A stretch of DNA of 42,222 bases, from positions 1-42,222 of the forward strand of contig JANWJU010000050.1 of assembly GCA_025451775.1 (NCBI GenBank). Direction: 5' to 3'. Below, one piece after another: positions 4,713 to 35,953 of this stretch; position 1 is the first letter of the stretch; each line of letters starts with the position of its first letter. The notes under the pieces are model-generated. The model was not told the DNA's origin, did not search any database, and worked only from the letters and a program-made list of their open reading frames with translations. The stretch is from Terriglobales bacterium. GTDB taxonomy: Bacteria; Acidobacteriota; Terriglobia; Terriglobales; SCQP01. The position numbers and the translations under genes were made by a program.

Positions 4713-4780
4713 ATGACATGACGTTCTCGCTGATTTAACAATCATGGCCGGGCGTGAATGACTCGCGCCGAGAGGTTGCC

Positions 4781-7700
4781 ATGATCGCTCACACATTCCG
4801 CCGTTCCCCGGCTGTCGCCATCGCGTTTCTGGGTTTTCTGGGCCTCGCGGCGAACGCGCAGACCCCGGTCGCGACCGTGTCGCCGTCGGCGTTGACGTTT
4901 GTGGCCCGGGATCTGAACGTCACCAGCGCCAGCCAGACGGTGACGCTCCGCAATGGCGGCACGGCCGCGCTCACGATCACCAGTGTGACAGCGAGCGGCG
5001 ACTTCGCCATCGCCTCCAACGCGTGCGGCGCTTCGCTGGCGGCAGGCGCGAACTGCGCGATCACGGTGACCTCGACGCCCACAGCGGTGGGCGTGCGCGC
5101 GGGCGCGCTCTCCATTGCCGATAACGCCAGCAGCAGCACGCAGGTGGTGGCGTTGACCGGGCGCGGTGTTGATCCCGCGGCCGTTGACTCCTACCAGTTG
5201 GTCACCGCCGCCGGACCGGGGCTGGTGCCGGGCCAGAGCTACGCCGCCACGGCGGTGAGCCTGGTCTCCCCTTCTGCGGTAACGGCGGACGTGGCAGGAA
5301 ACCTCTATGTCGTGAATGGTTTCGGTTTCCCAGACGCCGTGCTCAAGGTGACGCCGGGCGGCACGCTGACCTTCTACGCCGGGAACGGAACGAAGGGTTC
5401 CAGCGGCGATGGCGGGCCAGCGGCGCAGGCCGAATTGAACCTCGGCCCAATCGTCTCGAGCGTGGCACTGGACGCTGCCGGCGACCTTTTCATTCCCGAT
5501 TCCAGCAATTGCCGCGTGCGGGAGGTCAACGCCTCGACCGGCACAATTGCGACCGTGGCGGGTAATGGCACCTGCGGCTATAGCGGTGATGGTGGCGCGG
5601 CTAGCAGCGCTGAATTGAACGACCCGCAGGCGGTTGCGGTGGATGCTGCCGGCGATCTATTCATCGCCGATACCGGCAATTACTCCGTGCGGGAGGTAGT
5701 GGCCGGAACGGGTGCGATCAAGACCGTGGCCGGGACGGGCGTGAAAGGGTCATTGAGCGGAGCGAACCCATTGGTGAGAGGTGTGGCCACGACGGTGGCC
5801 CTGGGCAACCCCGGCGGGCTCGCGGTGGCGGTCAATGGCGATCTCTATATCGCCGACACTTTCAACTACGTGGTCTGGAGGGTGGCGGCACAAACTGGCC
5901 AGATCGCGCTCTTCGCCGGTCAGGTTCCGGGCAGCGCGGTGTGCGCGGCGGCGAGCGATGGGGTTGGCGACGGCTGCCCCGCCACGAGCGCCCTCTTCGG
6001 ATTGCCTAACGTTGTGCGCGGATTAGGTTTGGATGCGGCCGGTAATCTGTATATCGCTGCCGCCACCAGTGTCCATGAGGTGCTGGCGTCCAGCGGGGTC
6101 ATGGAGAACATCGCCGGCCAAGTGGGCACGGTCGAGAACGACAAGCTCGCCTCGGCGATCGGCGATGGTGGCCCGGCCACGGCGGCGTTATTCACGCGGG
6201 CCTCGGGGGTTTTTCCGCTGGCGAACGGCGACGTGCTCATCGCCGATGGCGGCCAGAACCGGGTCCGGCGCGTGAGTGGTGGCGTGATCACGACTATCGT
6301 GGGCAACGGCTTCTCCGGCGACACCGGCGACGGCGGCGCACCAACCAGCGCTCAAATTATCCCTGTGCGGTTGGCGGTGGAGGACAACGGCGGCCTGCTC
6401 ATCAGCGATCAGTACGACAACCTGATCCGCGAGGTCAAAGGAGGCGTGATTCGCACCCTCGCCGGCACCGGGGCCTATGACTACAGCGGCGACAATGGCC
6501 CCGCCTCCGCCGCCACGTTCAAGTTCCAAAGAAGCGTAGCCACCGACGCGGACGGCGATATTTTCGTGGCTGACCTCGGCAACGACGCGATTCGCAAAAT
6601 CAGTCTTGCGGGCGTGATCACCACCTTCGCAGGCGGAAATGGACTCGGATATAGCGGTGATGGCGGCGCAGCGACGGCGGCTCAAGTGAGCACCCCGTCT
6701 GGCGTCGCGGTGGATGCCGCGGGTGATGTATTCATCAGTCATAACGCGGTCGTTCGCGAGGTCACGCCCGATGGCATCATCCACACCTACGCCGGTAACG
6801 GGACTGCGGGCTATAGCGGCGATGGCGGCGCGGCGACAGCGGCCGAGCTGCGCGCTCCCGAAGGGTTGGCGGTGGATGCCAGCGGCGATCTTTTCATCGC
6901 TGATGTCGCAAATCACGTCGTGCGAGAGGTGAACGCGGCCACGGGGGTGATCAGCACCGTGGCCGGCAACGGTGTTTCGGGAACCAGCGGTTCCGGCGGC
7001 GCGGCGACCTCGGCCGAGTTGGAGGGCCCCAGCGATATCGCCCTCGATCCGGCGGGAAACCTTTTCATCATCGATTCCACGGCCAACGCCGGCTACGAGG
7101 TTTCAGCCGCCACGGGCATCCTGCAGCAGGCGCTGGGCGCGGCAAACGGCGTGTGCGGCGCCCAAGGCGTGGCCACTGACTCGGTGGGTGACGTGTATGT
7201 CGGAGACGTGTGCGGACAAACCGTGTACGAGGTGCTCACCCAGCCCACCCTCAACGTCTCGGCCTCGAGTCTCGATTTCGGCGGCCAGAACGTGGGCACC
7301 AGCAGCGCCAGTCAGACGGTGACGTTGACCAACCCCAGCGGGTTCCCGGTCGTGATTTCGGCGATCACCGGGACGAACGCCAACGACTTCGCTGTGACCT
7401 CGGCCTGCGGGGCGTCGCTGGCGGCGGGCGCGAGCTGCACGATCACGGTGACGTTCACGCCGGCGGCGACCGGCAGTCTGGCGGGCACGCTGACCATGGC
7501 CGACAACGCGGGCACGGGCACCCAGACGGTGGCGCTGAGCGGAACGGGAACGGCGCCGGGGATAGCCTTCTCGCCCGTCCACCTCACGTTTCCGTCGGCG
7601 CCGGTGGGCGTGGCCAGCGCGCCGCAAACCATCGTCGTGACCAATCCCGGGACCGGGCCGCTGACCATCAGCTCCATCAGCACTCTGCCCTTTAACTCGA

Positions 7701-10700
7701 CCGTCGCCGTCACCGACGACTGCGGCTCGACGCTGGCCGCGGGCGCGCACTGCACGTTGAGCGTGGTGCACACGGTCAACAGCGTGGGCACGGGCGGCGG
7801 CATCGTCCAAGTCACCGATAACGCCAGCGGCAGCCCGCAGATTATCGGCGTGCGCGGCATCGGCTACGACCCCAGCACGCAGCAGGCGAGCATTGCGACC
7901 ATCGCTGGGCCGGGACTGGTGCCAGGGCACAGCTATCAAGCCAGCGCCGTGAGTTTGTCCGATCCACAAGCAACGGCGGCGGACGCGGCCGGCAATCTTT
8001 ACGTCGCCCAAGGTCAGGCCGTGCGGCCTTACACCGTCTTCAAGATCACACCCGCCGGAACGCTGACCTTCTACGCGGGTACGGGTGTCGCCGGGTATAG
8101 CGGCGATGGCGGGCCGGCAAGCCAGGCCCGGCTCGACATCAACAGTGCGGTCACCGGCATGGCGGTGGACGCGGCCGGGAATCTATACATCCCCGACGTG
8201 GGCAACTGCGTCGTGCGCGAGGTGAATGCCGCGACCGGCATCATTTCCACCGTGGCCGGTAACGGCATCTGTGCCTATGCGGGCGACAACGGGCCCGCCC
8301 TGCAGGCCGAACTCAACACCCCGCGTGCGGTGGCGGTTGACGGCGCCGGCGACCTCTACATCGCCGACACGGCCAACTTCACCGTGCGCGAGGTCATGGC
8401 CGGGAGCGGTGTGATCAAGACCGTCGCTGGAACTGGCGCCAACGGTGTGCTGAATGTGGCGGGCGTAGGCACGAGCGGAACGGCCACGGCCGTATCGATC
8501 GGTTTGGTCAACGGCGTGACGTTGGACGCGGCCGGGGATGTCTACATCGCCGATGCGACCAACGGCGTCATCTGGAAAGTCACCGCGCAGACGGGACAAA
8601 TCGCCATCAACGCGGGTGAGCCGCCCACGGGAGCGGGCGCGTGCGCGGCGGCGGCGAATAGGCTGGGCGACGGCTGCCCGGCGACGCAGGCGACGGTGCC
8701 GATCGCGCAGTATGCGGGCGGGCTGGCGCTGGATGCCGCTGGCAACCTGTACGTCGCCACCGGTAACGGCGTGCGTGAAGTCGTGGCGGGCACCGGCATC
8801 ATGCAAGACTTCGCCGGCCAGGACACGGTGACGACCACGGCCAAGATCAACTCGGCCCTGGGCGACGGCGGTCCGGCTGCGCAGGCCATCTTCATGCGGG
8901 CGACTGGCGTCACCGTGCTTTCCAATGGCAACGTTCTGATTACCGATGGCGGCGAGGGCCGCATCCGGCAGGTTGCCGGCGGCGTGATCACCACCGTTGC
9001 GGGCAACGGCTTCGCCGGCGAAACCGGCAATGGAGGCGCGGCCACGCAAGCTCAGGTCTCGGTCGACGGCTTGGTCGTGACGCCCTCCGGAGATCTGCTC
9101 GCGACCTCGAACTACGACAACCTCATCCGCGTGATCACGGCCGATGGCACGATCCACGCGTTCGCCGGCAACGGCAGCACCGGTTATTCGGGTGACCGCG
9201 GCGCGGCCACTGCTGCTTCCTTTTCAATCCCGGCGTTCGCGGCGGTCGACGCGACGGGCGATAAAACCATCGTCGCGGACTGGGGCAACAACGCTGTGCG
9301 CGCGATCACGAGCGCGGGTGCGATCACCACAATTGCGGGCGGCAACGGTGCGGGTTATTCGGGAGATGGGGGCGCAGCCACGGCGGCTCGACTGAACTCG
9401 CCCGGCGGGGTCGCAATCGATGCGACCGGTGACATCTTTATCAGCGATAGCTTGAACAACGTCGTGCGCGAGGTCACGCCCGACGGCGTCATTCACACTT
9501 ATGGGGGCACTGGCGCCGCCGGTTACAGCGGGGATGGCGGCGCGGCCGCCGCAGCCGCGCTGCGCGGGCCCGCTGGTTTGGCCCTCGACGCGAGCGGGGA
9601 TCTCTATGTCGCCGACAGCGGCAACCACGTCGTACGTGAGGTCAACAAGCAGACTGGCACGATTTCGACCGTCGCCGGCAATGGCTCGAGCGGTATGGCC
9701 GGCCTGGAGGGGCCAGCCACTGCGGCGCAGCTCACGACGCCCTACTATCTGGCCTTGGATAGCGCCGGCGATCTCTTCATCAGCGACATCGGCTACCCAG
9801 CCCTGGATGAGGTAGTCAACGGCACGATTCATTACCTTACCGGGCGAGGCACCGAGCTCGATCCGAACTACGCCGGACCCGCCGCCGCGGCAGGCCTCTC
9901 CAGTATGCAGGGCGTGGCCGTGGATGCGGCCGGCGACGTGTACCTGGCCGACCTTAACGGCGGGACCATCCGCGAGATCAAGACGCGAGCGGGCGTAGCG
10001 CTGTCGGCCTCGAGTCTAAACCTCGGCAACCAGAACATCGCCAGCACCTCCGCGCCGCAGACGCTGACCATCACCAACAACGGCGGGGCCGTGCTCACGG
10101 TTTCGAATGCGGCTCTGGCGGGCGCGAACGCGAGCGACTTCGCGCTGACCAACAACTGCACCGCCAGCCTGAACGTGGGCTCAAGCTGCACGATCACGGT
10201 AACGTTCAGCCCGGCGGCGACGGGTGCGCGCACAGCGGCCTTGACGGTCACCGACAACAGCGGCGCCGGCAGCTCGCAAACCGTGAGCCTCAGCGGGACG
10301 GGCACGCAGCCGCAAGCGGTGATGTCGTCCAGCAGTCTGAGCTTCGGCAGCCAGGCGATCGGTTCCACCAGCGCGGCGCAGACCATCACGCTGTCCAATT
10401 CCGGAACCGGCCCACTGAGCCTGCAAAGCATCGCGGCCTCGGGCGCTTTTGCTGAATCCAACGGTTGCGGCGCGACGTTGGCGGCGGGCGCGAGCTGTGC
10501 CATCGCGGTGACGTTCACGCCCACGGCGGCGGGCGCGGCCAGCGGAACGCTGACCGTCAACGACAATGCGGCGAACAGCTCGCAGACGGCAACGCTCGCG
10601 GGCTCGGGTATCGCCATGGGGTTGAGCTTGAGCCCCTCGATCGTGAACTTCGGCAGCGTGCCCGTAGGCACGGCCGTGGCGCAAGGCGTCACCATCGTCA

Positions 10701-13700
10701 ACACCGGCTCGGCGGCGCTGCACGTGAGTGGCGTCACCGCGAGCGGCGACTTCAGCGCCAGCGGCAACTGCGCGACCATTCCCGCCGCCAGCGGTTGCAG
10801 CGTGATCGTGACCTTCACGCCGGCGGCGACCGGCGCCCGCACGGGCACGCTCTCGATTAGCGACGACGCGGCCGGGAGCCCACAAACCGTGCCGCTCGCT
10901 GGTACCGGCATCGCGCCGGGCGTCGCGGTGGCGCCGGCGAGTGTCGCATTTCCGGCGACCGCGGTGGCGGGCGCGAGCTTCCCGATCACGGTGACGGTCA
11001 CCAACTCGGGCACGGCGCCGCTCACCGGACTAGCGCTATCCACGGTGGGGGACTTCACGCAGACCTCCGGGTGCACGACGCTCGCGGCGGGCACGAGCTG
11101 CAGCGCCAGCGTGGTGTTCTCGCCCACGGTGGCGGGGCTCGACGCGGGCACGCTGGTCGTGACCGATAACGCGGGCACGCAAACGGTGGCGCTGGCGGGC
11201 ACGGGCGTGGCGCCCGGGGCGGTGCTCAGCGCCGCGCAACTGCTCTTCGGCGGACAACGGGTTGAGACCACATCGGCGGCGCAGACAGTGGTGCTGTCGA
11301 ATACCGGCGCCAGTGTGCTGGCGATCACTTCCATCACGGCTTCATCCGGGTTTAGCGAGGTCACCGGATGCGGCGCGAGCCTGGCGGCGGGGGCGAGCTG
11401 CGCCATCAATGTCAGCTTCCAGCCCTCGGCCGCCGGGGCGCAGACCGGCGCGGTCACCATCGTGAGCGCGGCGGGCACGCAGACGATCACGCTTTCGGGG
11501 CTGGGAACCGCGGCTGGGCTGACGATCATGCCGGCGGCGGTTTCGTTTGGCGCGGAGATGATCGGGACCACGAGCGCGTCGCAGACGCTCACTGTCACCA
11601 ATAGCGGCACCACCGCGCTCACGCTGGCGCCGGTGGCCGCGAGCGGCGACTTCAGCCAGGTGAACGCGTGCCCCCCGAGTCCGGCCACGCTGGCCGCAGG
11701 CGCCAGCTGCCTGATCAACGTCAGCTTCACGCCGGCGGTGGCGGGCCCGAGCAACGGAACGGTCACCGTCACCGACACCGGCGGGCTTACGGCCACGGCA
11801 GCGGTGCTGAGCGGTACCGGCACACTGCCCGGCATCAGCGCGGCGCCGGCTTCTTTGTTTTTCGGCGGTCAGCCCGTGGGCGCGCTCAGCGCGGCGCAGA
11901 CGGTCACCGTGACCAACTCCGGCACCGCGCCGCTGCAGGTCGCCGCCGTGCTCGTGAGCGGTGATTTCACGCAGGTGAATACGTGTACGACCGCGGCCAT
12001 CGCGCCCAGCCAGAGTTGCATCATCAGCGTAGCCATGGCGCCTACCACGCTGGGCAACGAGACCGGAACGCTGCAGATTCTCGATAACGCCGACGGACTG
12101 CATGCGGTGGCGTTGAGCGGCGTGGGCGTGGGTCCGGGTGCGACGGTCGCACCGGCGGCGCTGGCGTTTGGCAGCCAGCCCATCCCCGGCGCCAACGCCA
12201 GCGGTGTCACGCTCACCGGGGCCTCGCAGACCGTGGTGCTGGCCAATACCGGCAATACCGCGCTCACCATCTCCGGCGTCACCGCCCTCGGGCCGTTCAG
12301 CCAGTCCAGCAACTGCGGTATGACGCTGGCGGCGGGCTCGAGCTGCTCGATCACGGTGAGCTTCACGCCCACGCTACTAGGTCAAATGACGGGCGTGCTC
12401 ATCATCTCGGATAACTCCGCGAGCGGTGTGCAAACCGTATCGCTGAACGGCTACGGCAGTCCCAACGGACTGACGTTGACGCCGCCGTCGTTCAGCTTCG
12501 GTTCGGTGCCGGTGGGCCAGACCAGCCCGCCGCAAACCGCCACACTCACCAACAATACCGGGCAAAGCATCGCCAGCCTGACGATCTCCGCCAGCGGCGA
12601 GTTCGCCCAGACCAACACCTGTGGCACCACGCTGGCCAGCGGCGCGAGTTGCCAGATCAACGTGACACTGACGCCGCTCGTCTCGGGCGCGATCACCGGG
12701 TCGATTGCGATTGCGGGCGCGCTCGCGGGAACGCGGGCCGCGCTCGGCGCCAAGGTGATGGATTCGCGGCGGCTGAGCGCGACTTCCACCGGCGGACTGG
12801 CTGAAATCGCCTTGGGCGGATCGGGCGATACGTCGGGGGTTGAGCTCTCGGCCACGGCGCTGAGCTTTGCGACGCAGACGGTGGGGACCACGAGCGCCGC
12901 CCAGACCGTCACGCTCACCAATCGCGGCGCCAGCGCGCTCAGCGGCATTCAGGTGAGTGCGAACGGCGCCTTTGCCCAAACCAGCACCTGTGGGACAAGT
13001 TTGGCGGCAGGTGCGAGCTGCGCCATCGCGGTGACGTTCACGCCCCTCGTGGCGGGCACGCGCGCCGGGGTGTTGGGCATCGCCGATAGCGCCTCGGGTT
13101 CGCCGCAAACCGTGTCGCTGACGGGCACAGCCGTTCCTCCGGCACCGGCGGTGACGTTTTCGGCTTCAAGCCTGAGTTTCGCCGCCGAGCTGACCGGCAA
13201 CACCAGCGCGGCGCAGAATCTGAAGCTGACCAACAGCGGCACAGCGGCGCTGGCGATCACTTCGGTGGCGGCTTCCGGGGATTTCGCGGAAACCAACGCT
13301 TGTGGTACTTCGCTGGCGGCGGGTGCGAGCTGCACCATCGCGGTGTCGTTCACGCCTACGGTGGCCGGATCGCGCTCCGGCAGCTTGACTTTGGCCGATA
13401 GCGCTGCAAGTTCGCCGCAGACGGTCGTACTCGCGGGCACGGGAGCGGATGTGGCCGTGAGTGGCGGCGGCGCCAGCGCGACCGTGATCGCGGGTGGCAC
13501 GGCCAGCTACGCACTCACGTTCGCAGGTTCGAGCGGATTTTCGGGGGCGTTCACGTTGAGCTGTAGCGGTGCGCCGCAAGGGGCAGTGTGCACGCCCCGC
13601 CCCGGCAGCATCAGCGTGGCGGCCGGAGCGGCGGTGCCGGTAACGGTGACCGTCCAGACGGTCGATGTGACGGCGCTGCCGCCGCCGGCGCCCTCAGCAC

Positions 13701-13948
13701 CGGGCGGACCCATGCTGGCGTGGCTGAGCTTGGGTGCGCTCCTGCTGCTGGCGGGCGGTTACGCGCTCACCCGGCGGCGGCGGAGCTTGGCGCTCGTGCT
13801 GGGGCTGGCAGCGCTGATGTCGGCCTGCGGCGGCATCAACAACCTGCCGCAGCCGGGGAGCACATCGGCGGGCAGCTATGTGCTGACCGTGACCGCCTCG
13901 GGCCCATCGGGCCAACGCTCGGCCACGCTCAATTTGACTGTGCATTAG
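4781..13948 (+). CDS. Giant secreted NHL-repeat/ASH (choice-of-anchor-D) domain protein
   Basis: ~3055 aa; ATG 4781 with GAGAGG SD and signal peptide MIAHTFRRSPAVAIAFLGFLGLAANAQ; repeated YSGDGGxA...VDAAGDLFIAD NHL units; repeated SFGxxxVGTTSAAQTVTLTNSG...CGTSLAAGASCxIxVTFTP ASH units; C-terminal hydrophobic segments. Confidence 0.93.
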   Translation: MIAHTFRRSPAVAIAFLGFLGLAANAQTPVATVSPSALTFVARDLNVTSASQTVTLRNGGTAALTITSVTASGDFAIASNACGASLAAGANCAITVTSTPTAVGVRAGALSIADNASSSTQVVALTGRGVDPAAVDSYQLVTAAGPGLVPGQSYAATAVSLVSPSAVTADVAGNLYVVNGFGFPDAVLKVTPGGTLTFYAGNGTKGSSGDGGPAAQAELNLGPIVSSVALDAAGDLFIPDSSNCRVREVNASTGTIATVAGNGTCGYSGDGGAASSAELNDPQAVAVDAAGDLFIADTGNYSVREVVAGTGAIKTVAGTGVKGSLSGANPLVRGVATTVALGNPGGLAVAVNGDLYIADTFNYVVWRVAAQTGQIALFAGQVPGSAVCAAASDGVGDGCPATSALFGLPNVVRGLGLDAAGNLYIAAATSVHEVLASSGVMENIAGQVGTVENDKLASAIGDGGPATAALFTRASGVFPLANGDVLIADGGQNRVRRVSGGVITTIVGNGFSGDTGDGGAPTSAQIIPVRLAVEDNGGLLISDQYDNLIREVKGGVIRTLAGTGAYDYSGDNGPASAATFKFQRSVATDADGDIFVADLGNDAIRKISLAGVITTFAGGNGLGYSGDGGAATAAQVSTPSGVAVDAAGDVFISHNAVVREVTPDGIIHTYAGNGTAGYSGDGGAATAAELRAPEGLAVDASGDLFIADVANHVVREVNAATGVISTVAGNGVSGTSGSGGAATSAELEGPSDIALDPAGNLFIIDSTANAGYEVSAATGILQQALGAANGVCGAQGVATDSVGDVYVGDVCGQTVYEVLTQPTLNVSASSLDFGGQNVGTSSASQTVTLTNPSGFPVVISAITGTNANDFAVTSACGASLAAGASCTITVTFTPAATGSLAGTLTMADNAGTGTQTVALSGTGTAPGIAFSPVHLTFPSAPVGVASAPQTIVVTNPGTGPLTISSISTLPFNSTVAVTDDCGSTLAAGAHCTLSVVHTVNSVGTGGGIVQVTDNASGSPQIIGVRGIGYDPSTQQASIATIAGPGLVPGHSYQASAVSLSDPQATAADAAGNLYVAQGQAVRPYTVFKITPAGTLTFYAGTGVAGYSGDGGPASQARLDINSAVTGMAVDAAGNLYIPDVGNCVVREVNAATGIISTVAGNGICAYAGDNGPALQAELNTPRAVAVDGAGDLYIADTANFTVREVMAGSGVIKTVAGTGANGVLNVAGVGTSGTATAVSIGLVNGVTLDAAGDVYIADATNGVIWKVTAQTGQIAINAGEPPTGAGACAAAANRLGDGCPATQATVPIAQYAGGLALDAAGNLYVATGNGVREVVAGTGIMQDFAGQDTVTTTAKINSALGDGGPAAQAIFMRATGVTVLSNGNVLITDGGEGRIRQVAGGVITTVAGNGFAGETGNGGAATQAQVSVDGLVVTPSGDLLATSNYDNLIRVITADGTIHAFAGNGSTGYSGDRGAATAASFSIPAFAAVDATGDKTIVADWGNNAVRAITSAGAITTIAGGNGAGYSGDGGAATAARLNSPGGVAIDATGDIFISDSLNNVVREVTPDGVIHTYGGTGAAGYSGDGGAAAAAALRGPAGLALDASGDLYVADSGNHVVREVNKQTGTISTVAGNGSSGMAGLEGPATAAQLTTPYYLALDSAGDLFISDIGYPALDEVVNGTIHYLTGRGTELDPNYAGPAAAAGLSSMQGVAVDAAGDVYLADLNGGTIREIKTRAGVALSASSLNLGNQNIASTSAPQTLTITNNGGAVLTVSNAALAGANASDFALTNNCTASLNVGSSCTITVTFSPAATGARTAALTVTDNSGAGSSQTVSLSGTGTQPQAVMSSSSLSFGSQAIGSTSAAQTITLSNSGTGPLSLQSIAASGAFAESNGCGATLAAGASCAIAVTFTPTAAGAASGTLTVNDNAANSSQTATLAGSGIAMGLSLSPSIVNFGSVPVGTAVAQGVTIVNTGSAALHVSGVTASGDFSASGNCATIPAASGCSVIVTFTPAATGARTGTLSISDDAAGSPQTVPLAGTGIAPGVAVAPASVAFPATAVAGASFPITVTVTNSGTAPLTGLALSTVGDFTQTSGCTTLAAGTSCSASVVFSPTVAGLDAGTLVVTDNAGTQTVALAGTGVAPGAVLSAAQLLFGGQRVETTSAAQTVVLSNTGASVLAITSITASSGFSEVTGCGASLAAGASCAINVSFQPSAAGAQTGAVTIVSAAGTQTITLSGLGTAAGLTIMPAAVSFGAEMIGTTSASQTLTVTNSGTTALTLAPVAASGDFSQVNACPPSPATLAAGASCLINVSFTPAVAGPSNGTVTVTDTGGLTATAAVLSGTGTLPGISAAPASLFFGGQPVGALSAAQTVTVTNSGTAPLQVAAVLVSGDFTQVNTCTTAAIAPSQSCIISVAMAPTTLGNETGTLQILDNADGLHAVALSGVGVGPGATVAPAALAFGSQPIPGANASGVTLTGASQTVVLANTGNTALTISGVTALGPFSQSSNCGMTLAAGSSCSITVSFTPTLLGQMTGVLIISDNSASGVQTVSLNGYGSPNGLTLTPPSFSFGSVPVGQTSPPQTATLTNNTGQSIASLTISASGEFAQTNTCGTTLASGASCQINVTLTPLVSGAITGSIAIAGALAGTRAALGAKVMDSRRLSATSTGGLAEIALGGSGDTSGVELSATALSFATQTVGTTSAAQTVTLTNRGASALSGIQVSANGAFAQTSTCGTSLAAGASCAIAVTFTPLVAGTRAGVLGIADSASGSPQTVSLTGTAVPPAPAVTFSASSLSFAAELTGNTSAAQNLKLTNSGTAALAITSVAASGDFAETNACGTSLAAGASCTIAVSFTPTVAGSRSGSLTLADSAASSPQTVVLAGTGADVAVSGGGASATVIAGGTASYALTFAGSSGFSGAFTLSCSGAPQGAVCTPRPGSISVAAGAAVPVTVTVQTVDVTALPPPAPSAPGGPMLAWLSLGALLLLAGGYALTRRRRSLALVLGLAALMSACGGINNLPQPGSTSAGSYVLTVTASGPSGQRSATLNLTVH
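5189..7236 (+). repeat. NHL beta-propeller block 1 within giant protein
   Basis: Starts SYQLVTAAGPGLVPGQSY; ordered NHL units; paralogous to block 2. Confidence 0.8.
7240..7870 (+). repeat. Two ASH domains between propeller blocks
   Basis: LNVSASSLDFGGQNVGTSSASQTVTL... and IAFSPVHLTFPSAPVGVASAPQTIVV... Confidence 0.8.
7888..9996 (+). repeat. NHL beta-propeller block 2 within giant protein (duplicate of block 1)
   Basis: Starts QASIATIAGPGLVPGHSYQASAVSL; unit-by-unit correspondence with block 1. Confidence 0.8.
9997..13446 (+). repeat. Tandem array of 11 ASH domains
   Basis: Eleven successive ~100-aa units, each with SFG/N-x-G/C...C/TFTP/LSGTG landmarks. Confidence 0.8.
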
Positions 13949-14622: not shown

Positions 14623-14835
14623 ATGGCGGAGGTTTCCAGGGCAAAGTGGCAGGTGCGTACGTTCGCCTCTCACGCCGAGGCGGACGAGCACGAAGCGGAG
14701 TACTGGCTTCAGATCCCGCCGGAGGAGCGCTTGGCGGCGCAATGGGAACTGAGCCTTAGGGTGTACCGTTTGGCAGGGCTTTGCGCCGATGCACCCCGAC
14801 TGGATCGCACTGCTGTCCGCGTTTGTCGCGGCTGA
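14623..14835 (+). CDS. Small hypothetical protein, possible antitoxin-like partner of the nucleotidyltransferase
   Basis: 70 aa, HAEADEHEAEYWLQIPPEERLAAQWELSLRVYRL; resembles small proteins commonly found next to nucleotidyltransferase genes. Confidence 0.55.
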   Translation: MAEVSRAKWQVRTFASHAEADEHEAEYWLQIPPEERLAAQWELSLRVYRLAGLCADAPRLDRTAVRVCRG

Positions 14836-15110
14836 GGTCCGTTTTCTCGTCGTCGGCGCGGCCGCAGTCGCCTGGCACGGGCATTTGCGCTCCACGGCGG
14901 ATGTGGCTCGCCACTTTTCGCTGGGTCGCTGCCGCGATGCTCGCACTGTGAGCATCGCTCGCTTGTGGGCGGGCTTCGACTGGCGGCCGGCACGAGCGGC
15001 ACTGCCGCTCGTCGCCCCGCCCTGCTCGTGGAGCTTCCAAGCTGCCTGGAAAGGATCGGATCGACGTGAAGGCGTTGGAACAGGTTATCCGAACGCTTCG
15101 ATCCCGGTAA
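14789..15110 (+). pseudogene. Nucleotidyltransferase-like gene interrupted by palindromic element
   Basis: N-terminal MHPDWIALLSAFVAAEVRFLVVGAAAVAWHGHLRSTAD in frame from 14789; C-terminal-like PGKDRIDVKALEQVIRTLRSR* in another frame at 15045-15110; intervening 14903-15046 matches elements elsewhere in window. Confidence 0.65.
14903..15046. mobile_element. Dispersed multi-palindrome repeat element, longest copy (MITE/REP-like)
   Basis: Contains GTGGCTCGCCAC, GCGATGCTCGCACTGTGAGCATCGC (14934-14958), ACGAGCGGCACTGCCGCTCGT (14992-15012), AGCTTCCAAGCT; ends match 27583-27605 (reverse) and 35894-35948. Confidence 0.65.
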
Positions 15111-16236
15111 TGGCGTGGCCGAGGATGAGGGTGTGGATGTCGTGCGTGCCCTCGTAGGTCGAAACCGCTTCCAAATTGGCCATGTGGCGGAAGACGGGGT
15201 AGTCGCTGGCAATGCCGTTAGCGCCCAGGATATCGCGGGCGGCGCGGGCGGTGGCGAGCGCCATGGCGACGTTGTCGCGCTTGAACAGCGAGATATGAGC
15301 GGCGGTGGCTTCGCCCCGGTCCTTGAGGCGGGCGACGTGCAGCGCCAGAAGCTGGGCGTGAGCGAGGCCCGAGGCCATCTCGACCAGCTTGGCCTGCACG
15401 AGCTGGTGGCTGGCGATGGGGCGTCCATGGAACTGCTTGCGGGTGAGCGCGTACTCCCGCGCGGCGGTGTAGCAGGCGGAGGCGGCGCCGATGGCGCCCC
15501 ATCCGATGCCGTAACGGGCTTGATCGAGGCATTGCAGGGCGTGCTTCAGGCCCACGGCGCCGGGCAGGGCGTTGCTTGCGGGGATACGGACGGCGTCAAG
15601 GACAAGGTTGGCGGTGACCGACGCGCGCAGCGCGTGTTTTCCATGGATGGTCTCGGCGCGGACGCCGGGGCGGTCAGTCTCGACGAGGTAGCCGGAGACG
15701 GTGTTGGTTTCGCCCTCCTTGGCCCAAATGACGGCCAGGTGGGCGATGGAGCCGTTGGTGATCCAGGCTTTTTCCCCGCTGATCTCGATCTCGCCGTTAC
15801 CGGTGCGGCGGGCGCGGGTGCGCATCGCGCCCGGATTCGAGCCGAAGTCCGGCTCGGTCAGGCCGAAGCAGCCAACCGCCTCGCCAGAGCGCAGCGGAGG
15901 CAGCCAACGCTGCCGCTGGTCGCCGGAACCGAAGGCGTGGATGGGGTACATGACCAGGGCGCTCTGCACGCTGGCGAAGCTGCGCACGGCGCTGTCGCCC
16001 CGTTCCAGCTCCTGCATCATGAGGCCGTACTCGACGCTGCTGGCGCCGTTCAGGCTGCCCCCAAAGAAGCCCATGGCCGCCATGGCGGGCACGAGCTCGA
16101 GGGGAAAGCGGGCTTCGCGGGCGCAGGCGGCGATGATGGGGAGGACGTGTTCGTCCACCCAGCGCCGGGTGGAATCGCGGATCAGGCGTTCGTTGTCAGT
16201 GAGCGTGGCGTCGATACGGAGAAAGTCGTCGTCCAC
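15085..16236 (-). CDS. gcdH: Glutaryl-CoA dehydrogenase-like acyl-CoA dehydrogenase
   Basis: ACAD motifs [56 protein letters not shown]. Confidence 0.88.
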   Translation of the reverse strand: [383 protein letters not shown]

Positions 16237-26702: not shown

Positions 26703-27608
26703 GTGAGCGCAATTCACCCATATGCATGGCGGAACGGAGAGTTGGTGGCGAACCAGGGCATCTGCTTCTCGCCGTTTCAGACGGGACTCCTGACGGGATG
26801 GGGCCTGTTCAGCACGCTGCGGATCTACGCCGGAGTGCCGTTCGCCCTGGAGGAGCACTGGCGTCGGTTGAGCATGGACGGCGAGCGGTTGCATGTGGAT
26901 CTGAGCGGGTTATGGCCGGAGGTGGAGGCGGGGTTTCAGGCCTTGGTGGAGCACAACCAGGCGCAAGAGGCGGTGGCGCGGGTGTACTGCATCCGGAACC
27001 GGGGCGGGTTTTTGGATACGCCCAACCCGCGGGCAACCGACCTGCTGATGTTGACCCGCGAACTGCACCGCTGGGGTGCGAGCGCACGTCTGCGGCTGCA
27101 GCCGCATGGCCGCCATGCCCAGGCGCCGCTGGCCGGGACCAAGACACTGACCTGGGCGCATAATCTGGTGCTGGTGGAGGAGGCCAACGCCGCCGGCTAC
27201 GATGACGTGCTGCTGCTGAACGAGCGCGGAGAGGTGGCCGAGTGCACCTCCGCCAACGTGTTCGCGGTGCGGGGCGGCGTAATGCAAACGCCTCCACTCG
27301 ATTCCGGCGCCCTGCCGGGCGTAAGCCGCAAGGTGCTGCTGGAGTCGGGATCGCGGTATGGCTTGCGGGTGGAGGAGAAGACGCTCTGGCCCGAGGATCT
27401 GTGGGAAGCCGAGGAGGTCTTCATCACCTCCTCGACGCGCGAGGTGCAGGCGGTGGCGGCGATCGGGGAGCGGGAGCTGCGGCAAGGGCCCTGGACGGGA
27501 CGGGCCGCGGCGGCGTTCCGGCAGGTGGTGCAGGAGTACGTGGCCGCGCACACAGACGCGGCGCCGGCGACCAGCGGGAGTGCCCAGCGAGAAGTGGCGA
27601 GCCACTAA
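26703..27608 (+). CDS. Class IV aminotransferase (BCAT/ADCL-like)
   Basis: GLFSTLRIYAGVPFALEEHWRRL, TKTLTWAHNLVL, EVAECTSANVFAVRGG, LPGVSRKVLLE. Confidence 0.9.
   Translation: MSAIHPYAWRNGELVANQGICFSPFQTGLLTGWGLFSTLRIYAGVPFALEEHWRRLSMDGERLHVDLSGLWPEVEAGFQALVEHNQAQEAVARVYCIRNRGGFLDTPNPRATDLLMLTRELHRWGASARLRLQPHGRHAQAPLAGTKTLTWAHNLVLVEEANAAGYDDVLLLNERGEVAECTSANVFAVRGGVMQTPPLDSGALPGVSRKVLLESGSRYGLRVEEKTLWPEDLWEAEEVFITSSTREVQAVAAIGERELRQGPWTGRAAAAFRQVVQEYVAAHTDAAPATSGSAQREVASH
27583..27605. repeat. Terminal fragment of the dispersed palindromic element
   Basis: CCCAGCGAGAAGTGGCGAGCCAC, 22/23 identical to reverse complement of 14903-14925. Confidence 0.6.
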
Positions 27609-35761: not shown

Positions 35762-35953
35762 CTAGCGAGACACCCCGAATCGGTCATAGCCGATTATTTC
35801 GCCGGCGCTGCGTGCGTCGGTCTCGGGCAAAGCGGCGCAGCGCCGGCCAATTGCCATCAGTTCATCCTGCAAGCGCGCCGGGCGATTGGCTGCGCACGAG
35901 CGGCACTGCCTCGTTGCCCCGCTCGGCTCGTGGCATCTCCAAGCTGCCTCCAT
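35762..35953 (-). pseudogene. VapB antitoxin remnant fused to palindromic element
   Basis: C-terminal LQDELMAIGRRCAALPETDARSAGEIIGYDRFGVSR* is VapB-like; N-terminal part MEAAWRCHEPSGATRQCRSCAA is encoded by the repeat element. Confidence 0.7.
35894..35948. mobile_element. Partial copy of dispersed palindromic element
   Basis: 48/55 aligned bases identical to 14990-15046 with one 2-bp gap. Confidence 0.7.

Follow-up and report, generated by a model that had tools for sequence, protein, structure and literature searches.

Small repeats that carry no transposase are common in bacteria, and the way in which they move is an open question. The BOX elements of Streptococcus pneumoniae (boxA-boxB-boxC) combine constant ends with internal structured modules that vary in number, and the short dispersed repeats of cyanobacteria and the double-hairpin elements of fungal mitochondria are small structured sequences described as inserting into each other, with no enzyme known for it. 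CGTC-tagged repeats and Rickettsia palindromic elements are dispersed palindromes that sometimes lie within genes and have no dedicated transposase (PMC3733652). In the IS608/ISDra2 model of IS200/IS605 transposition the element moves as a single strand, and hairpin ends, no inverted repeats, no target duplication and a strand bias go with this mode of movement (PMC6006769).

The locus described here lies in a window of 42,222 nucleotides (the whole stretch of DNA that was analysed) from a Terriglobales bacterium whose genome (G000; 2.86 Mb in 161 contigs) is 82% complete; a near-complete relative of the same genus (G004) is 98% complete. A preliminary description had taken positions 14903-15046 for a non-autonomous, palindrome-rich, dispersed REP/MITE-like element, which is broadly right, as the segment belongs to a high-copy family. 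The window holds one full copy of this dispersed modular element at 14903-15050 (148 bp, cassette type m1a + m2a; 105-210 bp across the family). Comparison within the family shows the left boundary to be exact as first drawn, whereas the right boundary, set by the family consensus and by a conserved G at position +4 beyond it, lies four bases further than had been proposed. The features of the locus and of the related sites in the window are:

14903 to 15050, plus strand: full element copy, 80-92% identical to several copies in the same genome, with many more copies carrying other cassettes.
14903 to 14933, plus strand: fixed head, comprising the 5'-terminal hairpin GTGGC-TC-GCCAC, then TTTT and GGGTCGCT(C/G)CC; nearly invariant in G000 and G004 copies.
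14934 to 14958, plus strand: cassette site 1, here hairpin m1a (GCGATGCTCGCACTGTGAGCATCGC); m1b or nothing in other copies.
14959 to 14988, plus strand: fixed middle segment, TCGCTTG(A/T)GGGCGGGCTTCGA(C/T)TGGCGGC.
14989 to 15017, plus strand: cassette site 2, here hairpin m2a (GCACGAGCGGCACTGCCGCTCGT); elsewhere AGGGGATGCC, or m2b in one to three tandem copies.
15018 to 15050, plus strand: fixed tail with the terminus CCAAGCTGCCT(C/G)(C/G)A; pairs with an upstream segment in copies that have no m2 hairpin.
15051 to 15054, plus strand: right target flank AAGG (rule NNNG, with G at +4).
14623 to 14835, plus strand: conserved small ORF that overlaps the nucleotidyltransferase-like gene at its start; homologues in six relatives (G001, G003, G004, G006, G018 and G038).
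14789 to 14902, plus strand: 38-codon N-terminal stub of the nucleotidyltransferase-like gene, with a homologous stretch in relatives.
15051 to 15110, plus strand: putative remnant of the C-terminal part of this gene, which continues the frame of the stub when the element is omitted.
27567 to 27605, minus strand: truncated, head-only family copy, recognised by sequence match within the window.
35883 to 35949, plus strand: 5'-truncated copy consisting of a degenerate m2a and the tail; the TTGG that comes next conforms to the +4 G rule.

The last two entries bear out the earlier observation that both ends match other loci in the window, the head at 27605-27567 on the minus strand and the tail at 35883-35949 on the plus strand. 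Further copies, as expected of a dispersed repeat, were found both in the same genome and in relatives. A search of the window's own genome returned dozens of matches, several of them full-length, and with up to two mismatches allowed the 19-base head is present at 177 sites in G000 and at 137 in G004, against 0-1 for the reversed pattern used as a control. At the same threshold there are 6 matches in G002, 3 in G003 and 1 in G001, and 0-1 in each of five genomes from other genera of the family; out of 298 genomes in the order, G000, G002 and G004 alone have the head with at most one mismatch. When GTDB-220 contigs were scanned it appeared in 'Acidobacteriales bacterium CRAIB_MAG124', which matches G002 in its contigs and coordinates, and once each in three further, unrelated genomes, a number close to that expected by chance; plasmid and phage collections held no match to the element. 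We parsed 43 full copies in 0.79 Mb of G000 and obtained 116 profile matches in 1.97 Mb of G004, where the median divergence from the consensus is 3.6% and the spread was therefore recent. Copies are mostly intergenic, and 18 of the 43 full G000 copies are flanked by convergent genes against only 2 by divergent genes, as expected if insertions into promoters are removed. This genus-restricted family of modular mobile hairpin elements is real and, as far as our searches show, has not been described before.

The family is built from fixed segments into which variable hairpins are set. The core in G004 measures 111 bp (GTGGCTCGCCACTTTT...CCAAGCTGCCGCCA), and the G000 core resembles it but has two cassette sites, with site 1 either empty or occupied by hairpin m1a or m1b. 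Site 2 is occupied by a short stem arm, by hairpin m2a, or by one to three copies of m2b (a 33-bp unit) with or without m2a. Ten cassette combinations are present among the 43 full G000 copies, giving a BOX-like plan of constant ends and variable internal modules, with m2b in one to three tandem copies. A second family in G004 (family B) follows the same plan with a different sequence and has an m1b-like hairpin at the equivalent place. No intact cassette was found outside the element, and we rejected the idea that the cassettes are free mobile hairpins. Since exchange of the internal hairpins does not stop the element from spreading, the head, middle and tail are likely to be what movement needs, with the cassettes as passengers.

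All of the palindromes first reported are present, among them one at 14934-14958, whose 12-bp arms are 92% complementary, and one at 14992-15012, whose 10-bp arms match perfectly. In the whole 42-kb window only about six sites have perfectly paired 9-bp arms separated by a loop of no more than 8, and the element contains two of them. Folding likewise agrees with the structured character proposed for the segment, since on either strand the 144 nt fold more stably than dinucleotide-shuffled sequences (z -2.8 and -3.3). In copies without m2a, the tail stem has two central pairs with compensatory changes, each in 8 of 22 sequences; none of 500 shuffles reached this covariation score, whose signal comes mostly from two subfamilies. 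RNAalifold on whole elements gave no single convincing consensus fold because the copies are too similar. Rfam returned no match, its only hit over the element lying below threshold (20 bits against a gathering score of 38). A tRNA-like origin, considered for a D-arm/T-arm-like motif in G004 copies, was rejected, with the T-arm pairing lost in G000 copies and no tRNA match in Rfam. Elsewhere in G004, a stretch of contig C16 (L033, 1894-2258) resembles the cspA thermoregulator below threshold, scoring 35 bits where the gathering score is 78.

Insertion of the element is exact. At G004 C14:136695 a family B copy sits within the head of a family A copy. Joining its two flanks restores a sequence that is 100% identical over 42 nt to intact copies of family A, which shows that no base was duplicated or lost. 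Paralogous empty sites at G004 C7:176406, G004 C1:522729 and G000 C88:10081 are less perfect but consistent with exact insertion. On the right of the element G stands at +4 in 67 of the 76 copies from G004 and 37 of the 40 from G000 (p about 1e-23 and 1e-14), a rule that by inspection family B obeys too. The left flank has only a mild purine preference at -1, and the conserved tetranucleotide that directly precedes IS200/IS605 elements was not found there. Terminal inverted repeats are absent, the head GTGGCTCGCCAC and the tail GCTGCCGCCA not matching as inverted ends; the ends are asymmetric and carry subterminal hairpins.

Two other dispersed repeats of G004 came to light at these sites. One has the ends AGAGCAGAATC...GATTCTGCTCT and a central GCGGCTTTTCCTGGTGGAAAAGCCGC palindrome and is present in several copies, among them those at C7 about 176406 (L147) and at 12943-13057 of the joined sequence of C5 (L182); one copy holds the present element in its loop. 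The other, GCTAAGTGTGCCACTTTGCAATGCAAAGTGGC..., is represented by several diverged copies (C1:522729, C1:78420, C7:38084, C16:222921 and C1:284159), one of which bears the present element.

In the window the element shifts the reading frame of a nucleotidyltransferase-like gene that forms, with the small ORF upstream, a conserved pair in relatives. Judged by open-frame length, its orthologues reach 161-164 aa in G018 and G038 and 148 in G001, only 76 aa in G004, and are interrupted by a stop in G006. The nucleotidyltransferase-like N-terminus seen earlier is conserved beside the small ORF, although none of the Pfam and NCBIfam profiles recognises the 38-residue stub. With the right end placed at 15050 the flanks join in frame, MHPDW...RSTAD-KDRIDVKALEQVIRTLRSR*, an outcome that has a one-in-three chance of being accidental; the proposed C-terminal-like tail is plausible, though it has no independent match. 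The convergent overlap with gcdH is real (an acyl-CoA dehydrogenase gene, 15085-16236, minus strand). The suggestion that the element replaced the middle of the gene does not hold, as insertions of the family are exact and the flanks join in frame once the right end is corrected. If the tail is a true remnant, the approximately 100 missing residues would, given this exactness, have been lost for a reason other than insertion of the element, through a separate deletion or in a locus that had already decayed. Further upstream, positions 4754-13948 (plus strand) are a single ORF of 3,064 aa made of long repeated blocks, with motifs such as AGNGTxGYSGDGGAA and GASCTITVTFTP.

The orientation of the copies bears on how they arrive. 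In G004 it matches the regional GC skew in 81 of 93 copies (81:12, p about 1e-13), where target-site density alone would yield 56% agreement, and in a regression skew was the main predictor of orientation and gene direction was not. Gene direction was assigned by a simple caller based on codon usage, whose calls agreed with paralogues in 388 of 389 comparisons, and we rejected gene direction as the cause of the orientation in G004. The bias suggests that the element inserts into single-stranded DNA at replication forks. Within G000 contigs, copies are concordant in orientation (57 of 69 same-contig pairs, p about 1e-4), and local GC skew is no significant predictor (37 of 63). The skew flips sign several times inside G004 contigs C1, C7, C14 and C16, on both gene strands alike, which suggests recent inversions; because of these repeated changes, it is by inference that we equate GC skew with the replication strand.

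The copy in the window is thus one of a dispersed, structured, non-autonomous mobile element, and the balance of this evidence leans slightly towards its recent, independent amplification in several species of a single Terriglobales genus and its insertion as a single strand at the replication fork. The element would move as a folded single strand, with a trans-acting enzyme recognising the hairpins at both of its ends, and the top strand would be inserted into the single-stranded lagging-strand template, as by IS200/IS605 transposases. Strand bias, subterminal hairpins and the lack of duplication argue for such a lagging-strand mechanism, after the IS608/ISDra2 model (PMC6006769). Cassettes would be swapped among copies by recombination or gene conversion, and the enzyme would be either unrecognised or lost from the copy-rich genomes. 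The copy in the window would have landed, at GGCGGAT^AAGG, in a nucleotidyltransferase-like gene that was already shortened. Several observations count against this explanation: two models found no Y1/RAYT in G000 or G004, though G004 is 98% complete; orientation is not significantly predicted by skew in G000; the skew through which the replication strand would be identified changes sign within G004 contigs; the 5' flank has no tetranucleotide of the IS200/IS605 type; and the covariation is dominated by two subfamilies. It is possible, if doubtful, that this modular hairpin element is put into single-stranded fork DNA by an unrecognised transposase family, or by host replication and repair enzymes alone, with cassettes exchanged at two fixed sites.

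If the family were instead of the REP/RAYT type, it would have been amplified by a REP-associated tyrosine transposase since lost from G000 and G004. The hairpins, the lack of duplication and the strand bias all fit, the GTGG left end resembles the REP tag GT[AG]G (PMC6006769), and repeats of the TIR type with tyrosine transposases are known in Acidobacteria (PMC3733652). The genus, too, once had such an enzyme, as G002 contains a split RAYT-like gene (L186, about 1450-1975) and G003 one RAYT match. However, the Y1/RAYT models PF01797 and NF047646 have no match in G000 or G004, the two copy-rich genomes, contrary to the RAYT/TnpA gene that the preliminary description had predicted; young, abundant copies thus occupy genomes without the enzyme, and the enzyme-bearing genomes are nearly copy-free. 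No family copy lies beside the split gene of the copy-poor G002. The unit itself is asymmetric and reaches 105-210 bp with its cassettes, in contrast to a REP of 20-65 nt or an inverted doublet, and its GTGG is the 5' arm of a 4-5 bp hairpin, so that it is paired and not an unpaired tag; a REP-type tag (GTAG or GTGG, 0-2 nt 5' of a 7-20 bp stem) is not present. With neither tag nor enzyme the element therefore falls outside the REPs, and this origin is rather unlikely.

The hairpins might also be not mobile themselves, but copied through replication slippage or template switching by host enzymes only. Such copying would account for the negative searches for RAYT, reverse transcriptase and IS110, has parallels in CGTC repeats and Rickettsia palindromic elements, which are likewise without transposase (PMC3733652), and would fit the strand bias through fork errors. 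It is nonetheless improbable, for the full-length ends are precisely conserved, the +4 G rule holds and the element enters unrelated targets exactly, all of which points to enzymatic recognition of the ends. A derivative of a bridge-RNA (IS110-type) or retro-element would share the structured, asymmetric build without inverted repeats or duplication, but neither IS110 transposase nor reverse transcriptase was found in G000 or G004 and the target rule is essentially a single base, as opposed to a long guided sequence; we consider it highly improbable. A classical MITE, derived by deletion from a DDE insertion sequence, would fit a short, non-autonomous, high-copy and mostly intergenic element. 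It is hardly credible here, since inverted repeats and, at exact paralogous empty sites, target duplications are lacking, and inspection of 2,080 proteins predicted from the sampled parts brought no evident multi-copy transposase to light.

RAYT, IS110 and reverse transcriptase were accordingly rejected as drivers in G000 and G004. A search for Y2 (IS91-type) transposases gave no match, but control genomes gave none either. Among the head-only copies inspected, none had a transposase gene beside it as an autonomous copy with the same ends would, and these copies look like truncations or older, divergent copies. The absence of an enzyme is well founded only within the families searched, and the G000 genome is incomplete. 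Negative searches for REP transposase, IS110 and reverse transcriptase in two genomes narrow the hunt for the enzyme, and with young copies, exact empty sites, a sharp target rule and a strong strand bias in one genome the family provides unusually clear data, on which single-strand movement becomes testable.

Among known systems, the family resembles REP, BIME and REPIN sequences, which are high-copy palindromic repeats, mostly intergenic, with GT(A/G)G at one end and thought to move as single strands; it differs in being larger, asymmetric and modular, in not forming inverted doublets, in having its GTGG within a stem and in the lack of RAYT from copy-rich genomes. From CGTC-tagged repeats and Rickettsia elements it is set apart by its larger size, the lack of a CGTC tag and its restriction to one Acidobacteriota genus. 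The cyanobacterial and fungal mitochondrial repeats, to which the likeness is by description alone, are shorter and simpler. With IS200/IS605 and their non-autonomous derivatives it shares hairpins at both ends, the lack of inverted repeats and of duplication and, in G004 but without significance for GC skew in G000, a strand bias of the sort expected from lagging-strand insertion, whereas it has no left tetranucleotide, a conserved base at +4 on the right and no TnpA gene that we could find; lacking the tetranucleotide and the transposase, it is therefore not filed under IS200/IS605, although by analogy it may work like them. BOX, compared by plan alone, belongs to an unrelated organism, and the present element differs from it in having two separate cassette sites with different hairpins. 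The kind of element is thus a known one, and the combination of its features is unusual.
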